Part shown: in pieces, positions 5,365 through 24,693 of the stretch
Layout: the number at the start of each line of letters is the position of its first letter
Numbering within the stretch: the stretch's first letter is position 1
Source of the DNA: a virus
Virus record (IMG/VR): IMGVR_UViG_3300009785_000085
Span: 1 to 24,693 of that record
DNA: 24,693 nt
Direction: 5' to 3' (one strand)
Program-made: the position numbers and the translations under genes
Notes under the pieces: model-generated
Told to the model about the DNA's origin: nothing
Database searches by the model: none
What the model saw: the letters and a program-made list of their open reading frames with translations, nothing else

Positions 5365-6103
5365 TATTTAAAGTTCTTTTTTATTTGTTTTGCTTCTAGC
5401 TCTTGTTTTTCTTTTGTGTATTCTAAAGCATATAAGCATCCATGTAGGTTTAATTTAGTGATATGTTCAAGTCTTGTAATATCTCCTTGAGCGAGTCCTG
5501 AGAAAAGGCTTTGATACCATCCCCATTTTTTTGAAAAATTTGATGATGCATCGAGCTGTCCCTCCTGTTCTCTTCCAAATAATCCATCATAACTTTCGAT
5601 AAGTCGATCCCTAAATTGTGTAAAAAAAAAACTGCACCTAAAACGACATCAATACTAATATCAGTTAACTTGTCTTTTGTTTCAAGGTCGTATTCTTTAA
5701 TCAAATACTTGTCGCCTATCTTTTCGGATATTGGTCTGAATAAGACATTCATAGCCACTAGCATGTTGTCCCAGTCTCCGATATTTGTATCAAGATCGAT
5801 ATACTCTCCTAATGACATATCGTCTAGCTGAGGGATTAATCCGTATTCAATACCTCCTGTTTTAAAGGTTCTTATTAGAGTCGGCTTTACATCAAACATT
5901 TTGTTTAGTATTCCAACAATCCTGTCTGCATCAAAGACCTTTAAAAGCCTTACTGTCTTCGCATCTAAATTGCAAAAGATCTCGATCATTTTACATTGCA
6001 GAAAATAGTTGTCAGTATTATTTTTCTGAATTTTCAGATATTTTTGATACTGCTTTAGCGTGATTTCGCCTAAGTTGTTTGGTATTAGTAATGAACCTTT
6101 CAT
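5364..6103 (-). CDS. Tail assembly chaperone, -1 frameshift product (about 246 aa)
   Basis: The first 161 residues are shared with the 217-residue form. After TTA at 5623-5621 a -1 slip continues with ACA CAA TTT and gives 85 more residues, including KKWGWYQSLFSGLAQGD, then LEHITKLNLHGCLYAL and ending KQIKKNFK, with the stop TAA at 5366-5364. The -1 frame is closed upstream by TGA at 5651-5649 and has no ATG between that stop and its end, so a frameshift is the simplest way to express it. Its stop overlaps the ATG of the next gene as TAATG, typical of coupled neighbours here. The WGWYQS..LAQGD pattern is, as I recall, conserved in proteins at this locus. The arrangement matches the lambda gpG-gpGT and equivalent tail chaperone pairs. 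Confidence 0.75.
5450..6103 (-). CDS. Tail assembly chaperone, unshifted product (217 aa)
   Basis: A 217-residue protein starting MKGSLLIPNNLGEITLKQYQ. It has the features of a tail assembly chaperone in this phage type: an N-terminal domain with LGEITLKQYQKYLKIQ, a middle segment GEYIDLDTNIGDWDNM then LFRPI around residues 98-125, and a helical C-terminus. Two-frame tail chaperones (lambda gpG/gpGT) help the tape measure and tube proteins to assemble and are not in the mature virion. The gene follows an intrinsic terminator and begins the tail operon. At Leu161 it contains a run of ten T in codons GTT TTT TTT TTA, a slippery site, and a second frame then stays open to 5364. The last 56 residues of this unshifted form overlap that second frame. 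Confidence 0.68.
   Translation of the reverse strand: MKGSLLIPNNLGEITLKQYQKYLKIQKNNTDNYFLQCKMIEIFCNLDAKTVRLLKVFDADRIVGILNKMFDVKPTLIRTFKTGGIEYGLIPQLDDMSLGEYIDLDTNIGDWDNMLVAMNVLFRPISEKIGDKYLIKEYDLETKDKLTDISIDVVLGAVFFLHNLGIDLSKVMMDYLEENRRDSSMHHQIFQKNGDGIKAFSQDSLKEILQDLNISLN
5621..5630 (-). promoter_or_regulatory. Programmed -1 ribosomal frameshift site in tail assembly chaperone
   Basis: On the minus strand ten T are followed by A, read in the zero frame as GTT TTT TTT TTA CAC. Both T TTT TTT (5630-5624) and T TTT TTA (5627-5621) have the X XXY YYZ form of canonical -1 slippery heptamers. A weak stem, ACTT at 5604-5601 with AAGT at 5595-5592, lies about 16 nt downstream. No strong pseudoknot was recognised by eye. 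The product frame is open for 85 codons and ends at the start codon of the next gene. Confidence 0.75.
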
Positions 6104-6150
6104 ATATATATAACGTATTTTTTGATAAACTTTGTGTTAATGTTCCAATT

Positions 6151-6178
6151 AAAAAAAAGGCAGCCATTTCTGACCACC
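6151..6178 (-). terminator. Intrinsic terminator before the tail operon
   Basis: The minus-strand RNA reads GGUGGUCA GAAA UGGCUGCC (6178-6159) followed by eight U (6158-6151). All eight positions of the stem pair, counting three G-U wobbles, and the loop is a GNRA tetraloop. This is a good factor-independent terminator. It lies between the small zinc protein gene (ends 6210) and the tail assembly chaperone (starts 6103), separating the small-gene operon from the tail operon. The tail operon must therefore have its own promoter in 6104-6150 or depend on read-through. Confidence 0.78.
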
Positions 6179-6209
6179 CTTATTAGATGTAAGTTTTCCC
6201 AAGTTATTC

Positions 6210-6335
6210 TTACATCATGTCTGCTTCGAAACAACCGTTACTGCAGTACGTTCTATCTTCATGCATCGGCTTCTCGCAATGTGAGCAAGTGTATTCTGGC
6301 TGCTCGTGTGGATTTAAATAGTCGTCCCAACTCAT
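6210..6335 (-). CDS. Small zinc-ribbon protein (41 aa)
   Basis: ORF of 41 residues from the ATG at 6335 to TAA at 6212-6210. The sequence has CSHC at residues 17-20 and C31-S-N-G-C35, a C-x2-C...C-x3-C arrangement that could bind one zinc ion, with His19 and His25 nearby. The ATG overlaps the TGA of the upstream 41-residue ORF (ATGA). Small zinc-finger proteins of this sort are common in phages, and their roles range from DNA binding to protein contacts. No specific function can be given. A terminator follows 32 nt after its stop, so it is the last gene of its operon. Confidence 0.65.
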   Translation of the reverse strand: MSWDDYLNPHEQPEYTCSHCEKPMHEDRTYCSNGCFEADMM

Positions 6336-6457
6336 ATCTTAAATAATTTAGCGATTTCTAATATTTCTTTTTTGTCTTCTGTTTGATTATATGCCTCTAG
6401 TTGTAAAAGCCTATATAAATAATTACTGTCTGCTTCTGTAATTTTAACTGTTCTCAT
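6332..6457 (-). CDS. Small helical protein (41 aa)
   Basis: ORF from the ATG at 6457 to TGA at 6334-6332, encoding MRTVKITEADSNYLYRLLQL and 21 more residues. It is probably two helices, mixed charge, with no Cys and no membrane segment. Both ends overlap neighbours by ATGA: its ATG with the TGA of the upstream ORF, its TGA with the ATG of the zinc-ribbon ORF. These overlaps and its position in an otherwise empty stretch support that it is translated. Family not recognised. Confidence 0.55.
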   Translation of the reverse strand: MRTVKITEADSNYLYRLLQLEAYNQTEDKKEILEIAKLFKI

Positions 6458-6579
6458 ATATCAAATATTATACTGATTAATGTTCTGACTATAAAATAAG
6501 TAGGGAATAAAATCAAAAATATAATTTGTGCTTTTTTAAACTGTCTACCTAATTTAGCTGCTCTTGTATGTTTTCTCAT
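6454..6579 (-). CDS. Small single-pass membrane protein (41 aa)
   Basis: ORF from the ATG at 6579 to TGA at 6456-6454. The first 17 residues are basic (MRKHTRAAKLGRQFKKA), followed by a hydrophobic segment of about 18 residues (QIIFLILFPTYFIVRTLI), which suggests one membrane span with the basic end in the cytoplasm. The TGA overlaps the next ATG. Three 10-nt tandem repeats cover its start region. Function unknown. It is too far from the lysis genes to be called a holin with any confidence. Confidence 0.5.
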   Translation of the reverse strand: MRKHTRAAKLGRQFKKAQIIFLILFPTYFIVRTLISIIFDI

Positions 6580-7164: not shown

Positions 7165-8328
7165 TTAATGTATTGTATATGAGCCGAATCTAGGCTTGGA
7201 TAATATAGAGTAAGTTGCATAGCGGCATGGATCGATTATATGATTGTGATCGTCAATAGGTGTATTAAGTAATGCACCAGTTTTATCTTCACGCCACTTA
7301 TAGTTTCTAAACTCCGATATGGCATTAGACGATGAGGCTAGTATGTTAATCTTGTACCTCTTCAGTAAATCTATTCCTGCATTAATCGAGTCTTTACCTT
7401 TTAGACTTGGAAATATATTATGCCCCATACGTCTTAACTCGCTGATCAGTCTAGGCTCTGCGCTATCTGCGTATATAGGTTTACTGCTTAGCTCTTCACT
7501 TAGCAAGAACTTATGTATGTCAGTAGTCGTCATAGCGGTTCGATATAGATGCTCTTTTACATAAAGGTTTATGTCTTTAGTATATACTGAAACAAGCGTA
7601 CTAGGATCGTTCGTGTAGCCAAAATCCATTCCGTATGCGACAAGCTCTGCGTCTTCAGGTATATGAGTAACCTCAGCATATCGAAATACAGTACTCCGAC
7701 TTGCAGCTCTTTCGCCTAAGCCGTATATCTGCCAATACTGCTCGTCTGTATCTCTAAGTAGCTCGATCTCTTTTTTAATGGAATCTTCAACAAATGGATT
7801 ATCTAAGTACGTTGTTTTAAAAAAGTCGCAGTCCTCTCTAGGCAATACCTTGTCATAGATCCAATGATATTCGTCTGACGGATTAAAGTCAATTACAATC
7901 CTTTCCTGAGTCCTAAATATTAGCTGCTGCCAGTCCTCAAAGTATAACTCGTTGGCTTCATTAATAAAAAGCAGATCCCTTTTACGTCCTCTAATCTTTT
8001 GCGGTTGATCAAGCGAAATGAACTCCACAAGATTACCAAACAGATAATACTCAGAATTAGACTTATTATGGAACTTCTCGCTGTAAAGGTTATGACCTTC
8101 TAGTATGCTCATAAAGTCTCTTAGAACGGTCGCACGTAAGCTAGGGAATGACTTACGGCATACGGTTATGACCTTATTATTATTATTAGTACAATACTCG
8201 AATATGATCCACAGTATTATATTATAGGTTTTGCCAGACCTTGTTCCGCCTTGTTCTACAATAATCTTCTTATCTGAAACCAATAAGTGATCATAAACAA
8301 TGTTAGTCTTTATCTTTAGTTGATCCAA
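7165..8328 (-). CDS. terL: Terminase large subunit
   Basis: A 387-residue ATPase-nuclease that cuts and pumps phage DNA into the prohead. The ATPase domain shows Walker A GGTRSGKT at residues 27-34 and Walker B LLFINEAN at 119-126, with the Glu of the NEAN motif as likely catalytic carboxylate. The C-terminal RNase H-like nuclease domain shows GMDFGYTNDP (Asp235), YADSAEP (Asp288) and the region DDHNHIIDPCRYA (Asp360, Asp366). The total length fits PBSX/Terminase_3-type subunits. The start overlaps the terminase small subunit gene by 26 nt. A promoter follows its stop. No portal gene follows, which is unusual. The identification is firm. Confidence 0.95.
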   Translation of the reverse strand: MDQLKIKTNIVYDHLLVSDKKIIVEQGGTRSGKTYNIILWIIFEYCTNNNNKVITVCRKSFPSLRATVLRDFMSILEGHNLYSEKFHNKSNSEYYLFGNLVEFISLDQPQKIRGRKRDLLFINEANELYFEDWQQLIFRTQERIVIDFNPSDEYHWIYDKVLPREDCDFFKTTYLDNPFVEDSIKKEIELLRDTDEQYWQIYGLGERAASRSTVFRYAEVTHIPEDAELVAYGMDFGYTNDPSTLVSVYTKDINLYVKEHLYRTAMTTTDIHKFLLSEELSSKPIYADSAEPRLISELRRMGHNIFPSLKGKDSINAGIDLLKRYKINILASSSNAISEFRNYKWREDKTGALLNTPIDDHNHIIDPCRYATYSILSKPRFGSYTIH

Positions 8329-8662
8329 TTATCTCAATTTGAAAGTTAGTCGGCATTCCTTCAACACCTGTAATTTCTTGACGTTCTACATAACCTCTGT
8401 TCTTGCCCTTAGTCTTTAAGTAAAAGATAGTTGCTGAGGTGTTATTGTCTGATATTTGTTTATGGAGCTTACTCTCTGCGAAGTCTAAAGCTACGTTTTC
8501 AATATCGGAAACCTCAGCGGCAAAGACCTCATCTTCTTTTAGCCATTTATAGTATGTGCTTCTAGGAATGTCAGCCTCCCTACATGCTACGGTTACAACG
8601 CCTAAACTCTGCTCAAGCGATTTCAGTAAGCTCTCCTTTTTTATGTGTCTACTTTCGTCCAT
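8303..8662 (-). CDS. terS: Terminase small subunit
   Basis: A 119-residue DNA-binding protein. Residues 10-45 form a helix-turn-helix of the type in phage small terminase subunits (SLGVVTVACREADIPRSTYY, followed by KWLKEDEVF). Residues 50-90 are a helical oligomerisation segment containing ALDFAESKLHKQI and ATIFYLKTKGKNRGY, a pattern commonly seen in such subunits. It lies directly upstream of the large subunit and overlaps it by 26 nt. The role is to recognise the packaging start on phage DNA and load the large subunit. Start is preceded by an A-rich tract (AAATAAAACA). Confidence 0.88.
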   Translation of the reverse strand: MDESRHIKKESLLKSLEQSLGVVTVACREADIPRSTYYKWLKEDEVFAAEVSDIENVALDFAESKLHKQISDNNTSATIFYLKTKGKNRGYVERQEITGVEGMPTNFQIEIIGSTKDKD

Positions 8663-8741: not shown

Positions 8742-8875
8742 TATATTTGTGTTAGTATTATGATTAAAGTTAATGCTATTAAAGTTATACAACCATAAGT
8801 CATAGCTTTCATAGTCGATGTATATTGTTTGTCTGACCTTCCTTGCCTCGATCTAAACTGTCTTTGTTTTTTCAT
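8741..8875 (-). CDS. Small single-pass membrane protein (44 aa)
   Basis: ORF from the ATG at 8875 to TAA at 8743-8741. The first 23 residues are basic and polar (MKKQRQFRSRQGRSDKQYTS), followed by a membrane span (YGCITLIALTLIIILTQI). The start lies 23 nt inside the end of the IbrB-like gene, and its stop overlaps the next ATG. The basic N-terminus predicts an N-in orientation. Function unknown. Confidence 0.5.
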   Translation of the reverse strand: MKKQRQFRSRQGRSDKQYTSTMKAMTYGCITLIALTLIIILTQI

Positions 8876-9518
8876 CTTGTTTATGTTTTAATTTAAGTCT
8901 TATTTGATTAGCTGATTCCCAAGCCTTATTGTATTCTGCGTCAGCGAATAGTTTAGAGAATCCTGTAATGTGTTTTAGCTTGACTAGCTCTTCAACTCCC
9001 ATACCTAATTCGTTGCATATCTCTTTATCGCTCCACCCATTTTCTAACATAGTAAATACCATGCTTGACATCCCCGCTATTGAGTGCATACCTCTTGCTC
9101 TATTATGGCGAACCGTACTTGCCATTCGGTCGTTTATATCCTTTTCCAATACTACGATCGGCAGATAGCCTTTATTACGTTCTAGGATGTCGGCATTAGT
9201 CTTAGCAGTATAGTATCTATGAAATCCGTCTATGATTACATACTTTCCTGATTCTTTGTCTTGTATGGTTACGATCGGCTGAGTATATCCATCATGCTTA
9301 ATAGACGTATATAAGAGTCCCATTTCTTTTTTAGCTACTGAATTAGGGTTGTAGTCGTTTGGCGACACCTCGTCTATTAATACCCATCTTATTCTGTTTA
9401 CTGGCTGCTCTTTTAATGGCGACAAATTATGCAGCAATTCTTTAACCTCTTCAATTAGGTTTATGTTGTTTTCTGTTCTTAACTCTTTTATGAGCAAATT
9501 CTTTAGTGTTGTTTTCAT
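8853..9518 (-). CDS. ibrB: IbrB-like ParB-fold protein
   Basis: A 221-residue protein with a ParB/sulfiredoxin-fold domain. Motifs seen: NDYNPN at residues 54-59, the loop IIDGFHRYY around residues 95-103 containing DGFHR, and STVRHNRARG at 134-143, followed by a helix-turn-helix-like segment (WSDKEICNELGMGVEELVKL). This layout matches the ParB-like partner of the IbrA/YbdN PAPS-reductase-like family; E. coli IbrB and YbdM are encoded beside IbrA and YbdN. Here the pair is the same, with ATGA overlap. The ParB fold can bind CTP or act as a nuclease or ATPase in different families, and I cannot tell which applies. E. coli IbrAB were described as regulators of immunoglobulin-binding protein expression, but their biochemistry is unclear. 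Confidence 0.82.
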   Translation of the reverse strand: MKTTLKNLLIKELRTENNINLIEEVKELLHNLSPLKEQPVNRIRWVLIDEVSPNDYNPNSVAKKEMGLLYTSIKHDGYTQPIVTIQDKESGKYVIIDGFHRYYTAKTNADILERNKGYLPIVVLEKDINDRMASTVRHNRARGMHSIAGMSSMVFTMLENGWSDKEICNELGMGVEELVKLKHITGFSKLFADAEYNKAWESANQIRLKLKHKQDEKTKTV

Positions 9519-10681
9519 ATTAATCCTTTGACGTATTTATCATACTTTCTGTTAATCTCAATGTTTTTGCTGTTTAGCTTTCCGTTTACAAACTTCTTTA
9601 CTGTGTTAAAATGCTGAGACGTTAAAAAGTTGCCAAGCTTAGTAAAGTCAAAGTCTTGCGACAATACTGTTTTTACTATTGTTTTAAAGAAATCCACATA
9701 AACCTTATTTGATACCATGTATTTTTTGTTTTTATCTATATGCTTATTTAGCTTAGTAATAAACTGCTCATCATTAGTAAGATTATCTGCTAGGTATAAT
9801 GCATACTCCTTCCATGAGGTAAACATATAGGGTAAATTAGTTGGGCATCTAAAGGCATCGCTTTTAAGATGTTTGATTGCATTAGTCCCTTCTATCCTTT
9901 CAGCGATCTTATTCCATGTATCGGGTTCGATCTCCTGTATTAATAACAGATTTTGTATTGCGGTTTCGTGATGCAGGTTAGAGATCCGCATATCGCTTAC
10001 ACTTACTCCATGAGTAAATAGAGCATCGTATATTCTATTGTAAACAATATTGTTGTCAAGTATATATTTCCATACATCCGAATAGCTCCAGTCATAAATA
10101 GGGTAAAATGTATAATGTCCTAGTTTTTCGTTTAGCTTCTTGCCCCAAGTAATGTCTTCATAAGTCAAAGAGCTTGTAAGGCTCATCATTCTTTTAGGGC
10201 TTTCCTCTGTTCTAACTCCTGAGATATAACATGATTTTTTATTAGGGAAATGAACATCAAAGATTTCTTTAAATAACTCGTGAAATCCAAACTCTAAATA
10301 CTTGTTTTCTTTTATTGATATATCTGATTTTGTACGCATATGTTTTACGCCCTCTTGCCATATATAAATGTATTTACTATGAGACGATACATTATTGTAC
10401 CACTTCATTGGCATTTGAAACCACATAGGCTCGATCCTTTTGTCCTTAAATACTGATTCGCAATAGTCGGCAGTACCTTGCCATTCAGCTTCTTGGTCAA
10501 CCCATAAAACCTTGAGAGGTAAACGGTTTCGCTCCTCTGCTATTTTTAAAGTAAGGTTAAGGCATACGGTGCTATCCTTACCGCCTGAAAATCCCACGAC
10601 TACATTCTCAAAATCGTCAAACAGTCTATGTATTCTTTTTTCTGCCTCAACTAATACGTTATTCTTACTGTATATTTTCAT
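9515..10681 (-). CDS. ibrA: IbrA-like PAPS-reductase-fold protein (DUF3440 type)
   Basis: A 388-residue enzyme of the adenine nucleotide alpha-hydrolase (PP-loop ATP pyrophosphatase) fold. The loop VVGFSGGKDSTVCL covers residues 28-41 with SGGKDST at 32-38, followed by VLWVDQEAEWQGT near 58-70, which is typical of the DUF3440/IbrA/YbdN group. The C-terminal half (about 150-388) is the family extension containing YISGVRTEESPKR and SDMRISNL. Related proteins include PAPS reductases and DndC of DNA phosphorothioation. The substrate of the IbrA group is not established. The gene overlaps the methyltransferase gene by 17 nt and the IbrB-like gene by 4 nt, so the three are likely made together. Confidence 0.87.
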   Translation of the reverse strand: MKIYSKNNVLVEAEKRIHRLFDDFENVVVGFSGGKDSTVCLNLTLKIAEERNRLPLKVLWVDQEAEWQGTADYCESVFKDKRIEPMWFQMPMKWYNNVSSHSKYIYIWQEGVKHMRTKSDISIKENKYLEFGFHELFKEIFDVHFPNKKSCYISGVRTEESPKRMMSLTSSLTYEDITWGKKLNEKLGHYTFYPIYDWSYSDVWKYILDNNIVYNRIYDALFTHGVSVSDMRISNLHHETAIQNLLLIQEIEPDTWNKIAERIEGTNAIKHLKSDAFRCPTNLPYMFTSWKEYALYLADNLTNDEQFITKLNKHIDKNKKYMVSNKVYVDFFKTIVKTVLSQDFDFTKLGNFLTSQHFNTVKKFVNGKLNSKNIEINRKYDKYVKGLI

Positions 10682-11294
10682 CCTTTTTTAGCGAATTTAT
10701 TGTTTTCTCTAATCTTTTAGAATTAAACTCATTTCCTACAAACCTCATCTTGTTTTTAATTGCACCACGAGCCGAGTTGCCCATCCCGCAAGTAGGATCT
10801 AATAGGATAGCCCCCTCTTTAGCAAGTAATGGAATAGCTATCTTTAAACTATTCTCATCTAATGCCCCTTCTAGATCCTTTAAATCAGGTAATGTAATAT
10901 TAGGGTTTGTGGTTGCTACAATTACTGGATTAGGCAGCACCTTACTTCCTGACTTATATGTTAGTTGATACACCTCTTGATTAAACAATACGCCCTCTAG
11001 ATCTTTGATCGTTTCGTCTAGCCATTTATTACCTGTTTCTAGAAATACATAGCCGTCTACATGATTAACAATCATTTCTTTAATTATACCTATTAGCTTC
11101 TTATATGTCATAGGCTCGTTTTCCTGCCCCGTATGACGTTTGTTTAACGTACACCAATATTTCATATTGCCATCGCCCCAAGGTGGATCAGTATAAAGTA
11201 TATGAGCTTTTTCGCCGTTTAATAATTTATTAAAATCTACATTTTGCACATCTTCATTTGAGACAGTATGCTTACCTATTTTAATTGTTTTCAT
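10665..11294 (-). CDS. DNA amino-methyltransferase, DPPW type
   Basis: A 209-residue predicted SAM-dependent DNA methyltransferase. The catalytic motif DPPW is at residues 36-39 (ILYTDPPWGDG), and the SAM-binding motif DPTCGMG is at 166-172, followed by GNEFNSKRL with the acidic residue that usually contacts SAM ribose. The order DPPW before DPxxGxG is that of beta-class N6-adenine/N4-cytosine enzymes. There is no target recognition domain of normal size between them (residues 40-160 are short), so specificity may be relaxed or come from a partner such as one of the ParB-like proteins. It follows a 92-residue unknown protein by 3 nt and overlaps the IbrA-like gene by 17 nt. Confidence 0.86.
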   Translation of the reverse strand: MKTIKIGKHTVSNEDVQNVDFNKLLNGEKAHILYTDPPWGDGNMKYWCTLNKRHTGQENEPMTYKKLIGIIKEMIVNHVDGYVFLETGNKWLDETIKDLEGVLFNQEVYQLTYKSGSKVLPNPVIVATTNPNITLPDLKDLEGALDENSLKIAIPLLAKEGAILLDPTCGMGNSARGAIKNKMRFVGNEFNSKRLEKTINSLKKDENIQ

Positions 11295-11297
11295 AAT

Positions 11298-11576
11298 TTA
11301 TATTTTTGCTCGATTAATTATTGCAGTAGAGTCTTCAAAGCCTTGATCGTCTGTCATAACCCAATACTTAAATGTGCCTATGTTATAATAAATGTATTCT
11401 TTATTGTAAAATTTTTCTACATATCCATTATCCTTAATAAAATTCATGGCGGTTAAGAATTTAGCGTCTGGATAGTATTTTCTGCATATCCAACTATGCG
11501 GAATATTAGCCATTGATTTTGCAAACATAAATGTCGTTTCTAATTCCAAGAATAAATGGATCTCTTCTTTTGTCAT
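11298..11576 (-). CDS. Conserved small phage protein beside methyltransferase (92 aa)
   Basis: A 92-residue protein starting MTKEEIHLFLELETTFMFAK. It contains IPHSWICRKYYPDAKF, FIKDNGYVEKFYNKEYIYYN and IGTFKYWVMT, ending AIINRAKI. The pattern of H-S-W, an aromatic strand with YWVM and a terminal INRA is one I recall from many unrelated phages, always without a known function. The start overlaps the SpeD stop by ATGA and the stop lies 3 nt before the methyltransferase start. Its place between two SAM-using enzymes makes a link with modification plausible, but there is no motif that proves it. Confidence 0.65.
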   Translation of the reverse strand: MTKEEIHLFLELETTFMFAKSMANIPHSWICRKYYPDAKFLTAMNFIKDNGYVEKFYNKEYIYYNIGTFKYWVMTDDQGFEDSTAIINRAKI

Positions 11577-11941
11577 AATGATGTCCCTCTTAATATTACT
11601 GTTTCCTTTAGATCCTTTGGAAGAAATAAGTTGTTAATGTATTCAATCACAGAATCATGTTGAAAGTCTTTACAAGAATAAATGTCGGCAGAAAAATAAT
11701 TTAACTCAGGAAACGCATGGAAAGTAAAATGAGACTCCATAAATATAATGCCTCCAGTAATCCCTGTGCTTTTGATGTCAATCATTGTTTCGTCTACTAC
11801 ATAGATTAAAGGATCAGAGAGCGGTTTTAAGCCTATCAATTTAGTTATATCTAGTAACATATCTCTGATAAGAGCTGAGTCGCATAGAGGCTCTTTACCG
11901 CATCCATAGGCGTCTATTAATAAATGTTTTCCGTCCTTCAT
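11573..11941 (-). CDS. speD: S-adenosylmethionine decarboxylase proenzyme
   Basis: A 122-residue homologue of class 1B AdoMet decarboxylase, which makes decarboxylated SAM (the aminopropyl donor for spermidine) through a self-generated pyruvoyl group. Seen: the N-terminal HLLIDAYGCGKEPL, the processing site FMES at residues 67-70 with Glu69-Ser70, His75 in HFTFHAFPEL and Cys90 in ADIYSC. The Ser-His-Cys spacing (70, 75, 90) is the same as Ser63, His68, Cys83 of Thermotoga maritima, so self-cleavage and catalysis appear intact. The usual HTWPE is HAFPE here. Its TAATG junction and ATGA junction join it to a ParB-like gene and the 92-residue gene. No spermidine synthase (speE) is visible, so its product may serve the host polyamine pathway, lower SAM, or feed DNA modification. 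Confidence 0.9.
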   Translation of the reverse strand: MKDGKHLLIDAYGCGKEPLCDSALIRDMLLDITKLIGLKPLSDPLIYVVDETMIDIKSTGITGGIIFMESHFTFHAFPELNYFSADIYSCKDFQHDSVIEYINNLFLPKDLKETVILRGTSL

Positions 11942-12489
11942 TATTCTTGTGCTACATTAAACTCATGACCACATTCTGGGCACATGGTTTCTATGAATTT
12001 TTTTTCTGTTCCTTTTTGGAATGTCCCGCCTATTTGATCAACGCCCTTTTGGATGTCTTCGTCAGTCACTTCTTTATCGGATTGACTAGGAAACATTGAT
12101 GGCTCAAACGCAGTAGTTTCGTCTTTGTTTTCCCATACTCCTAATCCCCATTCGTTTAACTCGCTAGACTTCCAGTCGTTGGCTAAGATGTCCCAATCCC
12201 ACTCTCCAAAGCTTACGTTATCTTTTATAATGAACTGCTCTATTTGGGCTTCTGTGAGGTTCTCTGCTCTTATTATAGGGATCTCTTTTAGTCCAATCTC
12301 TTTACAAGCCAAGTATCTCATATTACCGCCTATGATACCACCCTCGCTGTTTACAACGATTGGTCTTAGGTTTAACATTTCAGGAAATTCTTTAATACTT
12401 TTTACTAGCTTTTTAAATTCGGCTTGTTTTATTGTCCTTGGATTTACAGGATTTGAAAACACTTCGTTTATCTTAACTTTCTCAATCAT
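11941..12489 (-). CDS. ParB-fold protein with C-terminal zinc motif
   Basis: A 182-residue protein with an N-terminal ParB/Srx-like domain: NPRTI at residues 16-20, a helix, then IVVNSEGGIIGGNMRYLACK at 44-63 with GGNMR in the position of the usual G-x-H-R loop. The His of canonical ParB is replaced by Met. A helical segment follows (residues 75-120), and the end has CPECGHEF (170-177), half a zinc ribbon. ParB-like proteins of this type are often next to or fused to phage DNA methyltransferases. Here the methyltransferase is two genes downstream. It could guide modification enzymes to DNA. It ends in TAATG with speD. Confidence 0.78.
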   Translation of the reverse strand: MIEKVKINEVFSNPVNPRTIKQAEFKKLVKSIKEFPEMLNLRPIVVNSEGGIIGGNMRYLACKEIGLKEIPIIRAENLTEAQIEQFIIKDNVSFGEWDWDILANDWKSSELNEWGLGVWENKDETTAFEPSMFPSQSDKEVTDEDIQKGVDQIGGTFQKGTEKKFIETMCPECGHEFNVAQE

Positions 12490-12492
12490 GGT

Positions 12493-12882
12493 TTATTTGT
12501 TTTTTAATGTCTCTTCTATTAATTTTTTCTCAAGTCTTTTACACTTTTTTTCTAAGTAGCTAATCTTGTTAATCTCGTCGTGAGATATATCAGGATCAAA
12601 AAGGAACTGACTCTCTAATTTTATTAATGTTGTATTGTGCTGTTGATAATAAGGATATTTTTTATAGCTATGCATTACATTTGCCATATTGATTTTCTTA
12701 CCGTTTTGATCATAAAACAGAACTATATTTTTCCATCTCATTTTTAGCTTGTCCCTTAACAAGTAAGTAAGTAGGGAGCGAACCTCAACGACCTTGCGCT
12801 CCCGATTATCTTTAAAGACATCGATCCCTGAAAGCTCAGAGATCTTATCTGCTATATTTATTGGTTTTAAATTATTTAGCAT
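12493..12882 (-). CDS. DnaA domain IV-like DNA-binding protein with coiled-coil tail
   Basis: A 129-residue protein. Residues 10-75 resemble the C-terminal DNA-binding domain of DnaA: DNRERKVVEVRSLLTYLLRD then a helix-turn-helix region ending in NMANVMHSYKKYPYY, analogous to the DHSTVLHA-type recognition loop. The AAA+ part of DnaA is absent. Residues 95-129 are Lys/Glu/Leu-rich and look like a coiled coil. It overlaps the preceding ParB-like gene by 11 nt. It may bind DnaA-box-like sites to start phage replication or to compete with host DnaA. The assignment is from remote pattern similarity, hence moderate confidence. Confidence 0.6.
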   Translation of the reverse strand: MLNNLKPINIADKISELSGIDVFKDNRERKVVEVRSLLTYLLRDKLKMRWKNIVLFYDQNGKKINMANVMHSYKKYPYYQQHNTTLIKLESQFLFDPDISHDEINKISYLEKKCKRLEKKLIEETLKNK

Positions 12883-13579
12883 ATTTTTTATATAAATCAG
12901 TTAAATACCTTGTTTGATCAGAGGCATTTGTATAATGTTCTAGGTAATGTTTTTTGTTTATTTTTTCTATTATCTTATAATCTAAGCCTTTGAAATTATA
13001 ATCTAAACTTTTTAATATCCTGCTAATATTTGCTGAGTAAGAATTAAATTTCGGGTTTTTATTATTTGACAATATTTTAATACAATTATAGATTCGACAA
13101 GCTGTAGAAATATCTGCTGTGAATTTATTGTTTTGTAGTGTTTTTGTAATGTTGTTTTTTTGACCGACCGATAATAATGTCAATATGTTTGTTTTACTAA
13201 ACTTCTTTTTAGATTCAATATACCAGTCGTTACATACCTCTAAGGCGTCTATGCATTCTTTGTTTCCTTTTGCAGCATTACGAAGAGCGAAATCAAAGGC
13301 AGTCCATTTTTTACTTATTTGTAAGTCATGGATATTCTCTTCTTTAAAATTAGATACAACATAATAAGAGATTGGTATTTCTAATTCTTTGGCGACCTGT
13401 AGCCTGTGTTGACCGTCTATAACACCGTGCTTATAGTTTACCATCATTGGCGTTTGTAACCCGATTAATTCTACAGACTCTTTTATTCTTTTGACATTGT
13501 TAATGTCTAGAAGTCTGTTTCCAATAATTTTTGTAAATAGATTGTAATTTTTTGTTGATTTAATTTGTTGTTGTTTCAT
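12872..13579 (-). CDS. ParB-fold protein, AT-rich
   Basis: A 235-residue protein starting MKQQQIKSTKNYNLFTKIIG. A ParB/Srx-like domain covers about residues 10-90, with VIDGQHRLQVAKELEIPISY at 53-72 (DGQHR at 55-59), and a helical region follows. The C-terminal 120 residues are rich in Asn, Lys and Ile and show no known domain. I recall similar proteins in flavobacterial phages and mobile elements. It appears more AT-rich than the flanking exonuclease and ParB-zinc genes. It begins 7 nt after the exonuclease stop and overlaps the DnaA-like gene by 11 nt. Likely DNA-binding or nucleotide-dependent; enzymatic activity is unknown. Confidence 0.74.
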   Translation of the reverse strand: MKQQQIKSTKNYNLFTKIIGNRLLDINNVKRIKESVELIGLQTPMMVNYKHGVIDGQHRLQVAKELEIPISYYVVSNFKEENIHDLQISKKWTAFDFALRNAAKGNKECIDALEVCNDWYIESKKKFSKTNILTLLSVGQKNNITKTLQNNKFTADISTACRIYNCIKILSNNKNPKFNSYSANISRILKSLDYNFKGLDYKIIEKINKKHYLEHYTNASDQTRYLTDLYKKYAK

Positions 13580-21166: not shown

Positions 21167-24100
21167 CTAATTTTTACAATTACAATTCTTTTCTAGCATC
21201 TCAACTTTAGCTGTTAGCTCTTGTATTGACTTAACTAATAAAGGAACTATTTTAGAATAATCAACAGACTGCATTTCTTCTGCATCTTTTTCCCCTGTTA
21301 CTGCATCAGGTAAAACCTCTTGAAGTTCGTGAGCCATAACTCCATAACTTCTGCTTTCGTCTGTTTTCCATTTAAAGTCATAAACAGGTATTTTAGAAAC
21401 CATATCTAATCCTGCAAAGTCTTTTAAATCTTCTTTTAGTCTGTAGTCAGATGATGTGTTGTAAGCAGTTGCAGAACCATTAGTAGTTATTGTACCTACC
21501 CAACTATTTGCATTTCCAAAAACCATATGATTTGAAGCACCTGTTCCATTAGAGCCACTATATAAAGCATAATTGTCTTGTGCTTCTATAAATAAACTAT
21601 CTATTGTAGGTGTTGCACTTGTTGTTCCAAAACCAACATCCCCCCCACTTGTAATACGCATTCTCTCTATTGTATTCCCACCAGAGGATGCAGTAGTAGA
21701 AAATTGTAAATAACCTCCTGCACTTCCACTTGTAGAAGTTTCCTTTCTACCTGCAATAGCAGCAAATTGTATTTGTGATGTTCCTGACCACACTCCACCT
21801 AAACTTATTTGTCCACCCTTATCAATTCCTAAAGTATCAGTAGTAGAAACAAATAGATTTCCTGCACTATTAACAGCTTTATTTGTGTCATTTAAAGTCA
21901 ACTTTGCATTAGGACTAGTCGTTCCTATACCTACGTTGCCTACAGTATCAATAACAAGTTTGTCAGAATATCCCGAACCACTTGTTTGGAATTTAATCTT
22001 TCCTCCATCAACGCCCATATATCCTATTGTACCATCGTCAGAATCTTTTAACCCAATAAAAACCGAACCACCTGTACCCTCAAAATTAGCTACAGTGGCA
22101 CTACCCTTTACGTGAAATTCAGTATCAGGACTATCCGTTCCGATACCTACGTTTCCAATATTATTAAAATAAGTATTTCCATTAGCTGAAATTGTGTTTT
22201 TTAATACACCATCAGAAAACATTTGTAAAGTTGCTTCGCCACCTGTTCCTGTTGAATCTATTAGAAAAACTGTATCTCCTGTTTCGCCTACACACTTAAT
22301 AAAATCGCCACCTGCTGTATTGTTTGTAAGAACTAAATTATGGTCTCCTCCTGATTTTGTTATATTTACTTGTCCTGCAAAAGTTGCGTTTGTTCCTATA
22401 CTAACATTATTAGTGTCAAAATTATGTATAATAGTACCTGCTTTTCTTAATCCTAATATCTGACCTTCGCCACCTGTTGAACTTCTACCTAATTGCATAG
22501 CAGCAGAATCTGAAGAAACTTCTATTGTAGGAACTGTAGTTGAATACTTTAATCCTATTCCTGTTTGGTCAGAAAATCCACTTGCTGGGTTTACAACAGT
22601 ATTACCTATTAATACATTTCCTGCAAAAGTTACATTTCCTGCAAAAGTTGAGTTTCCAGAACTGTCTATTGTTAACCTTTCTTCAACTCCATCTGAAATA
22701 TTAAAAACACCATTGTATGTAGCTAAATTCCATTCATTATTACTGTCTTTAACAGACAAAGAAGCACCATTAGAACCACTATTTTGAACCTGTAATACTT
22801 TACCCCATCCTTGAGGATTATCTATTGTTCCACTACCTACTAAAACATTTCCTGCAAAAGTTGCTGCTCCTGCACTATTTATTGAAAGTTTAGCTGTACC
22901 ACCTATATTTATTGCAACTGTAGAACCATCTATAATTAAAGGTTTATAAACACTATTATCTCTATCATAAGACTGGAAAAAACTTGTTTGTGCATTATAG
23001 AAAATTTCAGCTCCTGCTCCTGTTGGATAATTAGGTGTGCCAAAACCTGTTACTTTAAATGCTCCATTTGCCTGTAATCTTCCTGAGAAATTTCCTACAC
23101 CATTAGGGTCAAGATAAAAGTCATTTGATACTCCTGACCTACCTAATAAAAAGTAACCATCATTTCTAGCAATAAAAGTCCAACTTGGAGTTCCTGCTGT
23201 ATTACTATTCATAAAGATTTGAGGCGTAGCTTGACCTTGTACATATAAATAACCATTAGTAGTAACTGCTCCATCAAAAGTTCCTGAACCTGTAAAACCT
23301 ACAGATAGATTATTATTAAAAGTTGATATTGTTGACCCTGCATTATTTCTAACTATTATATTACCATTAGTTGTTCCTGAAGTAATTTGATTTATAATTA
23401 TATTAGATGAAATTAAAGAACCACCTGTAGATACAGTTCCTGTAAAAGTTCCTGTAGTCGCTTCTAATCCTGCTATTAATAAATCTCCTGCTACATATCC
23501 TGCACCACCAATATTAACTGTTGTTGTGGGTTCAACTGTTAAGCCTTTAAATAGCTTAAATTTATTACCATCTGAAGCATCAGAAAATAAACCTAAATAT
23601 CTTCCTGTACCATCATTGTAATCTCCATACAATCCAATATCTAAGCTGTTAGCTGTATTGCCTTTTGCTAATTGTATTAAAGGATCTACGACTGCTAGTG
23701 TTTGCGAGTTTACGGTCGTTGTAGTACCGTTTACTGTAAGATCTCCTGCGATCGTTACGTCACGCCCCGTAAATAAATCGCCGTTCCTAGAGATAGTTAA
23801 TGCAGTTGTATCTAAAACAAAGTTATTTGATGTTCTAAATACTATTGATTGAGTTACTGCTGCTTGGTCTATATAAAAATTACCTGTGAAATTTCTTAAA
23901 ATAGAGCTACCACTAGATTCGTGTCCAATAATAATATCGTCTCCTGTTCCATATTTACCAAATTGAGAATCAGGAACTGAAGTTCCACCTGAAAACGCTC
24001 CATTTCCTGTAACTGATATTCCTGTGCTTAAAGTTGTTAATATTGTTGCACCATTGTTTTTAAGTTCTACTGCATTTCCTATGCAATCAATATATCCTAC

Positions 24101-24693
24101 ACCATTAGTTTTTTGTATTTGTATTCGGCTTCCTCTAATACTTAACCCCCCTGTTCCTGTATCTGTAATAAAAGAATCATTTGAATCGTGATAAATCTCT
24201 AATCCATCACTAGCTGTTCCATAAATAGATTTTACATTATCATTATGGATAGTATCGCCTGTCATTGTTCCACCAATCAAAGGTAGAAAAGAACCACCTG
24301 CTCCAGTAATCGTGCCTGTTACCTCTAAATTACCTGTAACTTTTGCTCCTGCTGAAACTGTTTCTAATCTTTTTGTTCCATCATAGAAAAACTCATTTGC
24401 ACCATCTGAAAAGAAATTAGCGATAAATTCTCCAAGTCCTGGCTTTAAGATTCTAAAGTTAGTTGATGATAATTTTAAATCTCCTGTTGCATTAGCTATA
24501 AAACTATCTGAACCTTCGTGATAAATCTGTAAGTCTTGGCTCGTGCCTAGTCTAATTTTGCTATTATCTAACAAATCAATATTACCACCTGTAACATCAA
24601 CACCATTTGTAACTTGAATAAACCCACTTACTTTTGCTCCTGTGTTTGTAGTTTCAAATTTCTTTGAGTTGTCGTAATATAAAGAAACAGCTC
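21167..24693 (-). CDS. Tail fibre/spike with C-terminal peptidase S74 chaperone (partial at 5' end)
   Basis: The frame is open from the right edge (24693) to TAG at 21167, at least 1174 residues; the first residues in the window read AVSLYYDNSKKFETTNTGAK, so the start lies outside. A TTG at 24574 is within the frame and is not the start. The body is a string of beta-rich repeats with LQIYHEGSDSFI, LEIYHDSNDSFI, NVGIGTDSP, NVGIGTTSPNAKL and repeated FAGNV units. The last about 100 residues are an intramolecular chaperone: SSDYRLKEDLKDF (likely cleavage Ser), FKWK, YGVMAHELQEVLPDAV and VDYSKIVPLLVKSIQELTAK, which trimerises and cuts itself off fibres during folding. It would recognise the host surface. 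Confidence 0.9.
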   Translation of the reverse strand, partial: AVSLYYDNSKKFETTNTGAKVSGFIQVTNGVDVTGGNIDLLDNSKIRLGTSQDLQIYHEGSDSFIANATGDLKLSSTNFRILKPGLGEFIANFFSDGANEFFYDGTKRLETVSAGAKVTGNLEVTGTITGAGGSFLPLIGGTMTGDTIHNDNVKSIYGTASDGLEIYHDSNDSFITDTGTGGLSIRGSRIQIQKTNGVGYIDCIGNAVELKNNGATILTTLSTGISVTGNGAFSGGTSVPDSQFGKYGTGDDIIIGHESSGSSILRNFTGNFYIDQAAVTQSIVFRTSNNFVLDTTALTISRNGDLFTGRDVTIAGDLTVNGTTTTVNSQTLAVVDPLIQLAKGNTANSLDIGLYGDYNDGTGRYLGLFSDASDGNKFKLFKGLTVEPTTTVNIGGAGYVAGDLLIAGLEATTGTFTGTVSTGGSLISSNIIINQITSGTTNGNIIVRNNAGSTISTFNNNLSVGFTGSGTFDGAVTTNGYLYVQGQATPQIFMNSNTAGTPSWTFIARNDGYFLLGRSGVSNDFYLDPNGVGNFSGRLQANGAFKVTGFGTPNYPTGAGAEIFYNAQTSFFQSYDRDNSVYKPLIIDGSTVAINIGGTAKLSINSAGAATFAGNVLVGSGTIDNPQGWGKVLQVQNSGSNGASLSVKDSNNEWNLATYNGVFNISDGVEERLTIDSSGNSTFAGNVTFAGNVLIGNTVVNPASGFSDQTGIGLKYSTTVPTIEVSSDSAAMQLGRSSTGGEGQILGLRKAGTIIHNFDTNNVSIGTNATFAGQVNITKSGGDHNLVLTNNTAGGDFIKCVGETGDTVFLIDSTGTGGEATLQMFSDGVLKNTISANGNTYFNNIGNVGIGTDSPDTEFHVKGSATVANFEGTGGSVFIGLKDSDDGTIGYMGVDGGKIKFQTSGSGYSDKLVIDTVGNVGIGTTSPNAKLTLNDTNKAVNSAGNLFVSTTDTLGIDKGGQISLGGVWSGTSQIQFAAIAGRKETSTSGSAGGYLQFSTTASSGGNTIERMRITSGGDVGFGTTSATPTIDSLFIEAQDNYALYSGSNGTGASNHMVFGNANSWVGTITTNGSATAYNTSSDYRLKEDLKDFAGLDMVSKIPVYDFKWKTDESRSYGVMAHELQEVLPDAVTGEKDAEEMQSVDYSKIVPLLVKSIQELTAKVEMLEKNCNCKN
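22374..22862. repeat. Dispersed 12-nt repeat inside the tail fibre gene
   Basis: CCTGCAAAAGTT occurs on the plus strand at 22374-22385, 22620-22631, 22638-22649 and 22851-22862. Each codes for the minus-strand peptide (N/T)-F-A-G in the fibre repeats. Protein repeats, not CRISPR-like units, explain it; such sequence could promote recombination between fibre modules. Confidence 0.6.

Follow-up and report, generated by a model that had tools for sequence, protein, structure and literature searches.

A modular phage gene cassette around IbrA and IbrB with an exchangeable transferase slot and a probable role in DNA hypermodification

The window analyzed here, a virus record of 24,693 bases (IMGVR_UViG_3300009785_000085) that is probably a fragment, carries eight adjoining minus-strand genes that we think probably form a modular phage DNA hypermodification (anti-restriction) cassette built around the protein pair IbrA and IbrB (together IbrAB). 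The cassette recurs in unrelated phages. Its conserved core consists of IbrA, IbrB, and an unnamed domain of 92 residues (U92), usually with a ParB-like gene upstream; the slot between U92 and IbrA is exchangeable and holds group-transfer enzymes, in the window a predicted short DPPW methyltransferase (MT). In addition, the U92 domain is common to phage cassettes and restriction-type nucleases.

Conserved core and exchangeable slot

The eight open reading frames (ORFs) run from position 13579 to 8853, with junction offsets of −17 to +3 nt (negative for overlap, positive for gap): −11 for ParB1/DnaA-like, +3 for DnaA-like/ParB2, −1 for ParB2/SpeD, −4 for SpeD/U92, +3 for U92/MT, −17 for MT/IbrA, and −4 for IbrA/IbrB. 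The genes of the small and large terminase subunits, TerS and then TerL, follow downstream, with 190 nt between IbrB and TerS. Fifteen pairwise comparisons with relatives, covering all eight genes, gave ratios of nonsynonymous to synonymous substitution (dN/dS) of 0.036 to 0.224, indicating that all eight genes are under purifying selection.

Scans with MT (11 loci), IbrA (24 loci), and SpeD (22 loci) yielded 34 distinct contigs, some of them near-duplicates, and one locus of each was compared. U92 was found in all 11 MT loci and IbrA in 10, the remaining contig ending there. The contents of the slot, that is, the gene or genes between U92 and IbrA, differ among close relatives; in these relatives, U92 is 79 to 88% and IbrA 86 to 91% identical to the window proteins. 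Close-relative slots hold the DPPW MT (L004 and L039), a glycosyltransferase (GT)-like protein of the GT2 type (L037 and L017) or GT3 type (L020), or a GT1 together with a smaller DPPW methyltransferase (L018 and L026). The more distant slots hold a methyltransferase with a GNAT protein (L045), a GT3-type protein (L022 and L048), or a GT1 with a small methyltransferase (L019 and L043), and in L023 one ORF holds both GT3 and IbrA, possibly through an assembly frameshift. The predicted structure of the L018 GT1 (predicted local distance difference test score [pLDDT], 92.4) adopts a GT-A glycosyltransferase fold (Foldseek E value, 4.8e-9), and the VIA alignment to this fold has a Z score of 14.8 and a root mean square deviation of 3.9 over 189 residues. 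GT2 weakly matches a PHROG glucosyltransferase (3.7e-4), and GT3 weakly matches Glycos_transf_2 (0.0048).

A wider survey was seeded with U92 only. A four-sequence U92 alignment found 171 relatives in viral contigs, of which the best 80 were kept; removal of those with ≥90% identity left 61 nonredundant loci, and neighbors were called with profiles built for this analysis. IbrA or IbrB lies within 6 kb of U92 in 76 of the 80 loci (IbrA in 73, IbrB in 69) and in 57 of the 61 nonredundant ones. Two of the four loci lacking both within this distance (L093 and L110) end within 1.3 kb, and the other two (L076 and L109) are genuine, L109 having an IbrA about 7 kb away. A tailoring enzyme is found within 4 kb of U92 in 54/61 loci and a ParB2-type gene within 3 kb, likewise in 54/61. 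In the 80 loci, profiles made without cultured-phage seeds detected 18 ORFs in which U92 is joined to a class-I methyltransferase.

The slot could be tallied in 79 of the 80 loci (an ORF-overlap rule removed L072); in 69 of them, IbrA lies downstream of U92. These 69 slots hold GNAT alone (12), GT1 plus another protein (12), a fused class-I methyltransferase (11), a separate class-I methyltransferase (7), the window-type DPPW methyltransferase (MTw) plus a second DPPW-like protein (7), GT1 plus GNAT (6), a DPPW-like protein alone (3), nothing (3), or single combinations (8). The occupants range from the DPPW methyltransferase and three glycosyltransferase-like types to GNAT, the class-I methyltransferase, which in many cases is fused to U92, and others. 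Predicted modification genes and exchangeable tailoring enzymes appear together in one operon, as in phage DNA hypermodification cassettes. In 10 of the 12 slots with GT1 plus another protein, the partner is a protein of about 170 residues that looks oxygenase-like by eye, and in the other two it is a DPPW-like protein. An HxD..H motif is conserved in eight aligned sequences of the former, which found no support in Pfam or PDB sequences; calling them oxygenases is a guess. A second protein of about 190 residues, which has a degenerate (E/D/A)P(P/S)W-like motif, often stands beside the DPPW methyltransferase or in its place (L068, L075, L079, L084, L086, L090, L101, and L138). It recalls pairs such as METTL3-METTL14, in which a catalytic subunit is joined by a pseudo-enzyme.

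Versions of the cassette are also carried by cultured phages. In Microbacterium phage Hendrix, the gene order is gp154 (GT1 type), gp155 (glucosyltransferase), gp156, gp157 (N-acyltransferase), and gp158 (IbrA), with gp156 joining an N-terminal U92 domain to a class-I methyltransferase; the opposite end of the record carries IbrB, a pair of ParB proteins, a gene annotated Rnase E, and TerL. Microbacterium phage Rasputia has glycosyltransferases, an acetyltransferase, a U92-methyltransferase, and IbrA. U92 in both phages was detected by profile search, whereas tblastn of the phage collection with the window MT, the window U92, and the L033 U92 gave no matches. Profiles built without Hendrix and Rasputia recovered gp154 as GT1 (E value, 9.4e-39), gp156 as U92 (1.5e-7), and the Rasputia U92 (5.6e-8). 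The GNAT and GT2 profiles stayed above an E value of 1 once the Hendrix seeds were omitted, and the Hendrix acyltransferase and GT2 calls are therefore taken from the record annotation. IbrA itself matches 215 of 50,697 phage records. No U92 was seen in the stretches read around IbrAB of Arthrobacter phage Wheelbite, Bacillus phage 035JT001, and Rhizobium phage P11VFA; Wheelbite and 035JT001 have an annotated methyltransferase nearby.

An earlier sequence-only reading of the window had proposed that its eight same-strand, nearly contiguous or overlapping genes form one coherent modification cassette beside the terminase. The gene layout bears out the first part and the survey supports the second: rather than being scattered, U92, IbrA, and IbrB co-occur across very different phages, and the slot is nearly always of transferase type. 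The exchangeable slot, the place of U92 in the core, and the link of U92 to restriction nucleases go beyond that reading.

Swapped-gene hot spots are common in phages, and the slot might be another of them, collecting unrelated DNA-modifying or host-takeover genes that share no pathway, with IbrAB and the ParB proteins acting as regulators or nucleoside triphosphate (NTP) switches. The annotation of IbrA and IbrB as co-activators of prophage gene expression would suit such an anti-restriction hot spot, as would the DPPW-methyltransferase and GT3-type genes that are also found downstream of IbrB or by TerS (L064, L065, L106, and L112). However, U92 is not swapped and shares one ORF with a class-I methyltransferase in 16/61 loci, nearly all slot occupants fall within a few tailoring classes, and the same classes recur around the IbrA of Hendrix, a phage of an unrelated host. 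We therefore regard a hot spot of this kind as unlikely.

Gene identities and the roles of IbrA, IbrB, and SpeD

Families were assigned with Pfam, PHROGs, and NCBIfam at their curated cut-offs (Table 1). The identities given in the sequence-only reading hold at this level for IbrA, SpeD, IbrB, and ParB2, which exceed the Pfam cut-offs; those of MT, ParB1, and the DnaA-like protein come from motifs, PHROG matches, or subthreshold scores. MT scores 16.8 bits against PF01555 (E value, 0.007), below the cut-off of 26.7, and contains DPPW followed by DPTCGMG in the order motif IV to motif I. It also matches a PHROG DNA methyltransferase (7.4e-6) and is a candidate beta-class DPPW DNA methyltransferase. 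Family support for ParB1 consists of a PHROG ParB match and its motif, and among the contigs compared, the gene is confined to the closest relatives. Within these, ParB1 is present in loci with the DPPW methyltransferase in the slot (L004, L035, L036, L039, and L040) and undetected in those with other enzymes there (L018, L020, L026, and L037), a pattern of small numbers with some near-duplicate contigs; a strict link is weakened by the more distant L008 and L045, which have the methyltransferase and no detected ParB1. According to the available text of PMC12704722, CTP, ATP, or GTP can be ligands of ParB-fold proteins, and those of phages frequently form fusions with predicted DNA methyltransferases.

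Table 1. Genes of the cassette and the adjoining terminase genes in the window
Gene	Description	Length (aa)	Coordinates	Strand	Support
ParB1	ParB fold with DGQHR motif	235	12872..13579	-	phrog_12305, 3.6e-15
DnaA-like	DnaA-domain-IV-like small protein	129	12493..12882	-	weak similarity, E 0.0045, below curated cut-off
ParB2	ParB_N domain and C-terminal Cys4-like tail	182	11941..12489	-	ParB_N above cut-off
SpeD	class 1b S-adenosylmethionine decarboxylase homologue	122	11573..11941	-	PF02675; aligned Ser/His/Cys
U92	unnamed domain, core member, putatively reader-like	92	11298..11576	-	no family
MT	short beta-class DPPW methyltransferase (predicted), no obvious target-recognition domain, slot occupant	209	10665..11294	-	motifs, PHROG
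IbrA	PP-loop ATP-pyrophosphatase/PAPS-reductase-fold enzyme with DUF3440, no conserved Cys	388	9515..10681	-	PF01507, DUF3440
IbrB	ParB/Srx fold, DGFHR and TxRxNRAxGxH motifs	221	8853..9518	-	ParB_N
TerS	terminase small subunit		8303..8662	-	weak PHROG support
TerL	PBSX-family terminase large subunit		7165..8328	-	family match

IbrA matches PF01507 with 67.9 bits (1.5e-18; cut-off, 22.5) and DUF3440 (PF11922) with 34.6 bits (2e-8; cut-off, 25), and IbrB, whose gene overlaps that of IbrA, matches ParB_N with 27.3 bits (cut-off, 26.3). A 3′-phosphoadenosine 5′-phosphosulfate (PAPS)-reductase domain with DUF3440 next to a ParB-fold protein is the domain content by which the pair is predicted to be IbrA/IbrB. 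SGGKDS, GxRxxE...R, and a P.xDW pattern are conserved in 15 diverse IbrA sequences, and the two IbrB motifs are invariant in 12 sequences.

DNA phosphorothioation or another sulfur modification, with IbrA acting like DndC, had been among the suggested chemistries. IbrA and DndC share the same PP-loop/PAPS-reductase fold, IbrA weakly matches the DndC model TIGR03183 (37.8 bits against a cut-off of 290.4), and ParB1 bears a DGQHR motif, as DndB does. However, DndC works with Fe-S cysteines and with a Cys dyad, according to the available text of PMC10853773, whereas in IbrA no alignment column has Cys in more than 5 of the 15 sequences, and Hendrix IbrA has no Cys at all. Sulfur chemistry therefore loses support. 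None of DndA, DndD, and DndE was found among the eight genes with Pfam, PHROGs, and NCBIfam; host IscS could replace DndA. Sulfur chemistry was rejected as the leading idea, and a DndC-like role of IbrA now seems very improbable.

SpeD matches PF02675 with 76.4 bits (2.6e-21; cut-off, 25) and stays below the cut-off of the NCBIfam equivalog TIGR03330 (70.1 bits against 75.65). Its pyruvoyl-forming Ser and the His and Cys are aligned in ESHFTFHAFPE...YSC with those of Thermotoga maritima 1tlu, the residue roles being those described in the available text of PMC10407285; the Pro of FPE is also kept and may be the Pro named there. The same source reports that homologues of SpeD may act as decarboxylases of arginine or ornithine. 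Among the 22 SpeD loci, U92 is present in 19 and IbrA in 17; L041, L042, and L008 end too early for U92, IbrA, or both, and neither was found in the 15 to 20 kb examined around SpeD in the ~90-kb contigs L046 and L047. The latter two have a close SpeD (61 to 62%) followed by a small protein that is SET-domain-like by eye.

Within the window lineage, SpeD accompanies all of the slot types, and it is found in none of the 80 U92-seeded loci; it is therefore optional in the cassette. SpeD, ParB1, and the DnaA-like gene are extras present in part of the lineage. We considered a tie of SpeD to the DPPW methyltransferase, with decarboxylated S-adenosylmethionine (dcSAM) as the donor, and do not favor it, since relatives with SpeD show all of the slot types found in this lineage. 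L128 encodes, at 5925-6458 between its DPPW methyltransferase and IbrA, a protein homologous to pyruvoyl-dependent arginine decarboxylase (PDB 1n2m; E value, 3.2e-12). Because of this homologue and the arginine and ornithine activities reported for SpeD relatives, an amine building block stays possible. The evidence on the aminopropyl group suggested earlier as a component of the modification is divided between a SpeD that is optional and a second amine-making enzyme in one slot. SpeD may feed the cassette pathway with an amine or dcSAM or may serve the polyamine supply.

SpeD could also act in polyamine or S-adenosylmethionine (SAM) auxiliary metabolism, giving spermidine that neutralizes the packaged DNA or dcSAM that disturbs host methylation, with the other genes being a separate matter. 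Croceibacter phage P2559S (L141) gives this idea some weight. At 42666-44920, the end of its record, a ParB-methyltransferase-like gene is directly followed by SpeD and then by a gene annotated Rnase E that is TerS-like by position; TerL stands at the record start, in line with the SpeD block across the record ends, and a profile search of the record found no IbrAB. SpeD is near the terminase in both viruses, and that of P2559S is reported to be a functional S-adenosylmethionine decarboxylase (AdoMetDC) in the available text of PMC9992855. However, this account covers one gene only, SpeD is missing from all U92-seeded loci, and most SpeD loci carry U92; we consider it improbable.

The U92 domain in phages and bacteria

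U92 is characterized by the motif FAK[TS]M..xPH ... YW ... INR. It matched no Pfam family, PHROG, or NCBIfam model, and a search of PDB sequences gave nothing convincing. Its predicted structure (pLDDT, 95.1) had no match in the PDB at a Foldseek E value of ≤0.001, its best VIA Z score of 4.7 indicates no more than a common arrangement, and it resembles one nameless viral predicted model (A0A516LRX9; 1.3e-7). The assignment of U92 to a known fold was therefore rejected for lack of a convincing match in Pfam, PDB sequences, Foldseek PDB, or VIA-align. EVE, ASCH, SRA, and the like are absent from the fold matches listed, and U92 may still have such a fold.

One scan of bacterial genomes gave 46 cellular U92 loci, several on short contigs. 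Outside the few loci with IbrAB, U92 is a protein by itself or forms the end of another one. In Bacteroidales, it is fused to GmrSD in L182 (4123-6270; PF03235, 2.1e-34) and directly follows GmrSD (L179 and L185) and McrC (L184); a Butyrivibrio plasmid has U92 near McrC. It also ends an Exo_endo_phos nuclease (L168), a NUDIX protein (L159), and an HNH-like protein (L183; Pfam Endonuclease_7 at only 0.0078), and it precedes class-I methyltransferases in L147 and L160. In Bacteroidota, U92 was found in at least 3 of 395 genomes of the class of G001 (E value, 1e-6) and in at least 8 of 173 and at least 2 of 299 genomes of the families of G001 and G002, respectively (E value, 1e-10), with the centre genome included in each count. 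The same context pattern of nuclease fusions and neighbors is described for the modified-base readers EVE and DCD in the available text of PMC7641849, and by analogy, U92 is a putative reader of a modified base.

The 43 neighbor proteins scanned, of 71 listed, are mixed, including GmrSD, McrC, AbiEii, Vsr, Fic, and WYL as well as apparently unrelated genes. U92 adjoins ADP-ribosylglycohydrolase genes (L170 and, by eye, L171; 3 of the 43 in all) and, in L174, a WYL-domain regulator. It also forms the C terminus of proteins of about 240 to 270 residues with an undescribed N-terminal part (L048, L156, L169, L176, L177, and L186); in L156 (Flavobacterium) and L176 (Polaribacter), a TerS-like gene comes next.

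The best matches listed for the window TerL among cultured phages, at about 35% identity, are mostly Flavobacterium phages, and the virus plausibly has a Bacteroidota host. Elsewhere in the window, positions 21167-24574 encode a tail-fibre-like protein of 1,135 residues, which close relatives match at the C-terminal end only, with about 37 to 40% identity.

Proposed pathway and comparison with known systems

The architecture described above is observed; from it we infer a chemistry and a DNA target as follows. IbrA, a PP-loop ATPase, would spend ATP on activating a position in phage DNA or in a nucleotide, and IbrB, as a putative NTP-binding partner of the ParB/Srx fold, would help it to make or load a chemical handle. 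U92 would bind the modified base or site and bring the slot enzyme there, which would add the outer group: methyl in the window; sugar, acyl, or others in relatives. ParB1 and ParB2 may lend DNA binding to a methyltransferase that lacks a target-recognition domain, and the contribution of SpeD, an optional one, might be an amine or aminopropyl building block or just polyamine. The product would mark phage DNA before TerS/TerL packaging and so protect the genome, and some bacteria may counter with nucleases to which this U92 domain is fused or adjacent.

A more specific version, which we offer tentatively and hold to be rather doubtful, is that IbrA-IbrB is a previously undescribed non-sulfur machine for DNA-base activation. 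A base carbonyl would be activated and an amine coupled to it, in likeness to lysidine formation on tRNA; in some lineages the amine would come from a pyruvoyl decarboxylase of the cassette (SpeD, or the enzyme of L128). U92, as a new reader domain, would recognize the product, a plug-in methyl-, glycosyl-, or acyltransferase would finish it, and bacteria would have recruited U92 to restriction of the GmrSD and McrC types in order to attack such DNA. The arginine decarboxylase homologue of L128 makes this version slightly more likely.

tRNA is a frequent substrate of PP-loop enzymes, TilS for one joining an amine to cytidine. IbrA might likewise be a tRNA-type enzyme, as are TilS and TtcA, and the cassette might remodel tRNA or other RNA during infection. 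In Hendrix and Rasputia, tRNA genes indeed immediately precede the cassette. However, no tRNA gene was found in the window, the adjacent TerS/TerL genes and the DPPW and ParB partners point to DNA, and U92 is linked to GmrSD and McrC DNA restriction. Such a remodeling of RNA appears distinctly unlikely, less probable than a hot spot.

Several observations weigh against a DNA hypermodification cassette as proposed here. RNA or a nucleotide is a possible target, as the tRNA genes just mentioned would suit. The 80 U92 loci are those nearest to an IbrA-linked query, and linkage was therefore somewhat favored by selection; with two-seed profiles, TerS or TerL was found within 6 kb of U92 in only 22/61 loci. 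By profile search, no U92 or slot enzyme was detected in the stretches read around IbrAB of Flavobacterium phages 1H and FCL-2, Streptococcus phage CHPC1062, and Mycobacterium phages Gaia, Rita1961, and Baloo; Gaia has an annotated helicase there, and 1H and FCL-2 have a protein that is helicase-like by eye. IbrAB can therefore occur without U92 and may serve a separate function. Cellular U92 is mostly apart from IbrA, with IbrA and IbrB together at 3 of the 46 loci (L146, L155, and L157), each U92-nuclease fusion is a single example, and some cellular neighbors, such as phosphofructokinase and radical SAM proteins, look unrelated. Family support is weak or lacking for the GT2, GT3, and oxygenase-like slot proteins, and the arginine decarboxylase homologue occurs in only 1 of the 80 U92 loci.

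IbrA and IbrB are common and carry only a regulatory label; the cassette gives them a testable biochemical setting and ties them to an unnamed domain that is common with host restriction nucleases. The cultured phages Hendrix, Rasputia, and their relatives offer versions of it. If the proposal is true, phages reach unusual DNA chemistry by a modular route whose finishing enzymes can be exchanged for one another, and hosts have a matching counter-measure. In the open-licence PMC literature, as far as its text was available and with subscription papers and preprints largely outside it, no link was found between DNA modification and IbrA/IbrB, U92, or this exchangeable slot. Phage cassettes with ParB and DNA-modifying enzymes before the terminase (PMC9302106) and handle-and-finish pathways such as CmoX/CmoY (PMC12783734) are already known from the available text of these reports. 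A categorically new chemistry is possible.

Among known systems, the CmoA-CmoX-CmoY carboxymethylcytosine pathway of phage S-B43 resembles the proposed one in being phage-borne and in combining a SAM-derived donor made by one gene, a DNA-acting transferase, and an ATP-dependent tailoring enzyme, and many of its contigs have ParBc genes, as described in the available text of PMC12783734. Unlike that system, the eight genes match no CmoA, C5-methyltransferase, or asparagine-synthetase family, and the window has IbrA/IbrB, U92, and the exchangeable slot. The DR-cluster phage CaiB likewise has overlapping modification genes with a ParB directly before the terminase (ParB, TET/JBP, pyrophosphorylase, and kinase), whereas IbrA, U92, and SpeD are not named in the available part of its description (PMC9302106). 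Dnd phosphorothioation also pairs a PP-loop enzyme with a ParB-superfamily protein (PMC10853773, available text), but the window-type IbrA is without conserved cysteines, and DndA, DndD, and DndE are not among the eight genes. EVE and DCD are, like U92, small domains that occur alone or fused to nucleases (HNH and, rarely, GmrSD), DCD also with Rossmann methyltransferases, as far as the available text of PMC7641849 describes them; U92 differs in having its own motif, and it matches known domains neither in sequence nor, convincingly, in fold. Finally, the IbrA/IbrB of Escherichia coli and temperate phages is the same pair by domain content and adjacency, whereas in the window the pair is embedded in a packaging-proximal operon with transferases.

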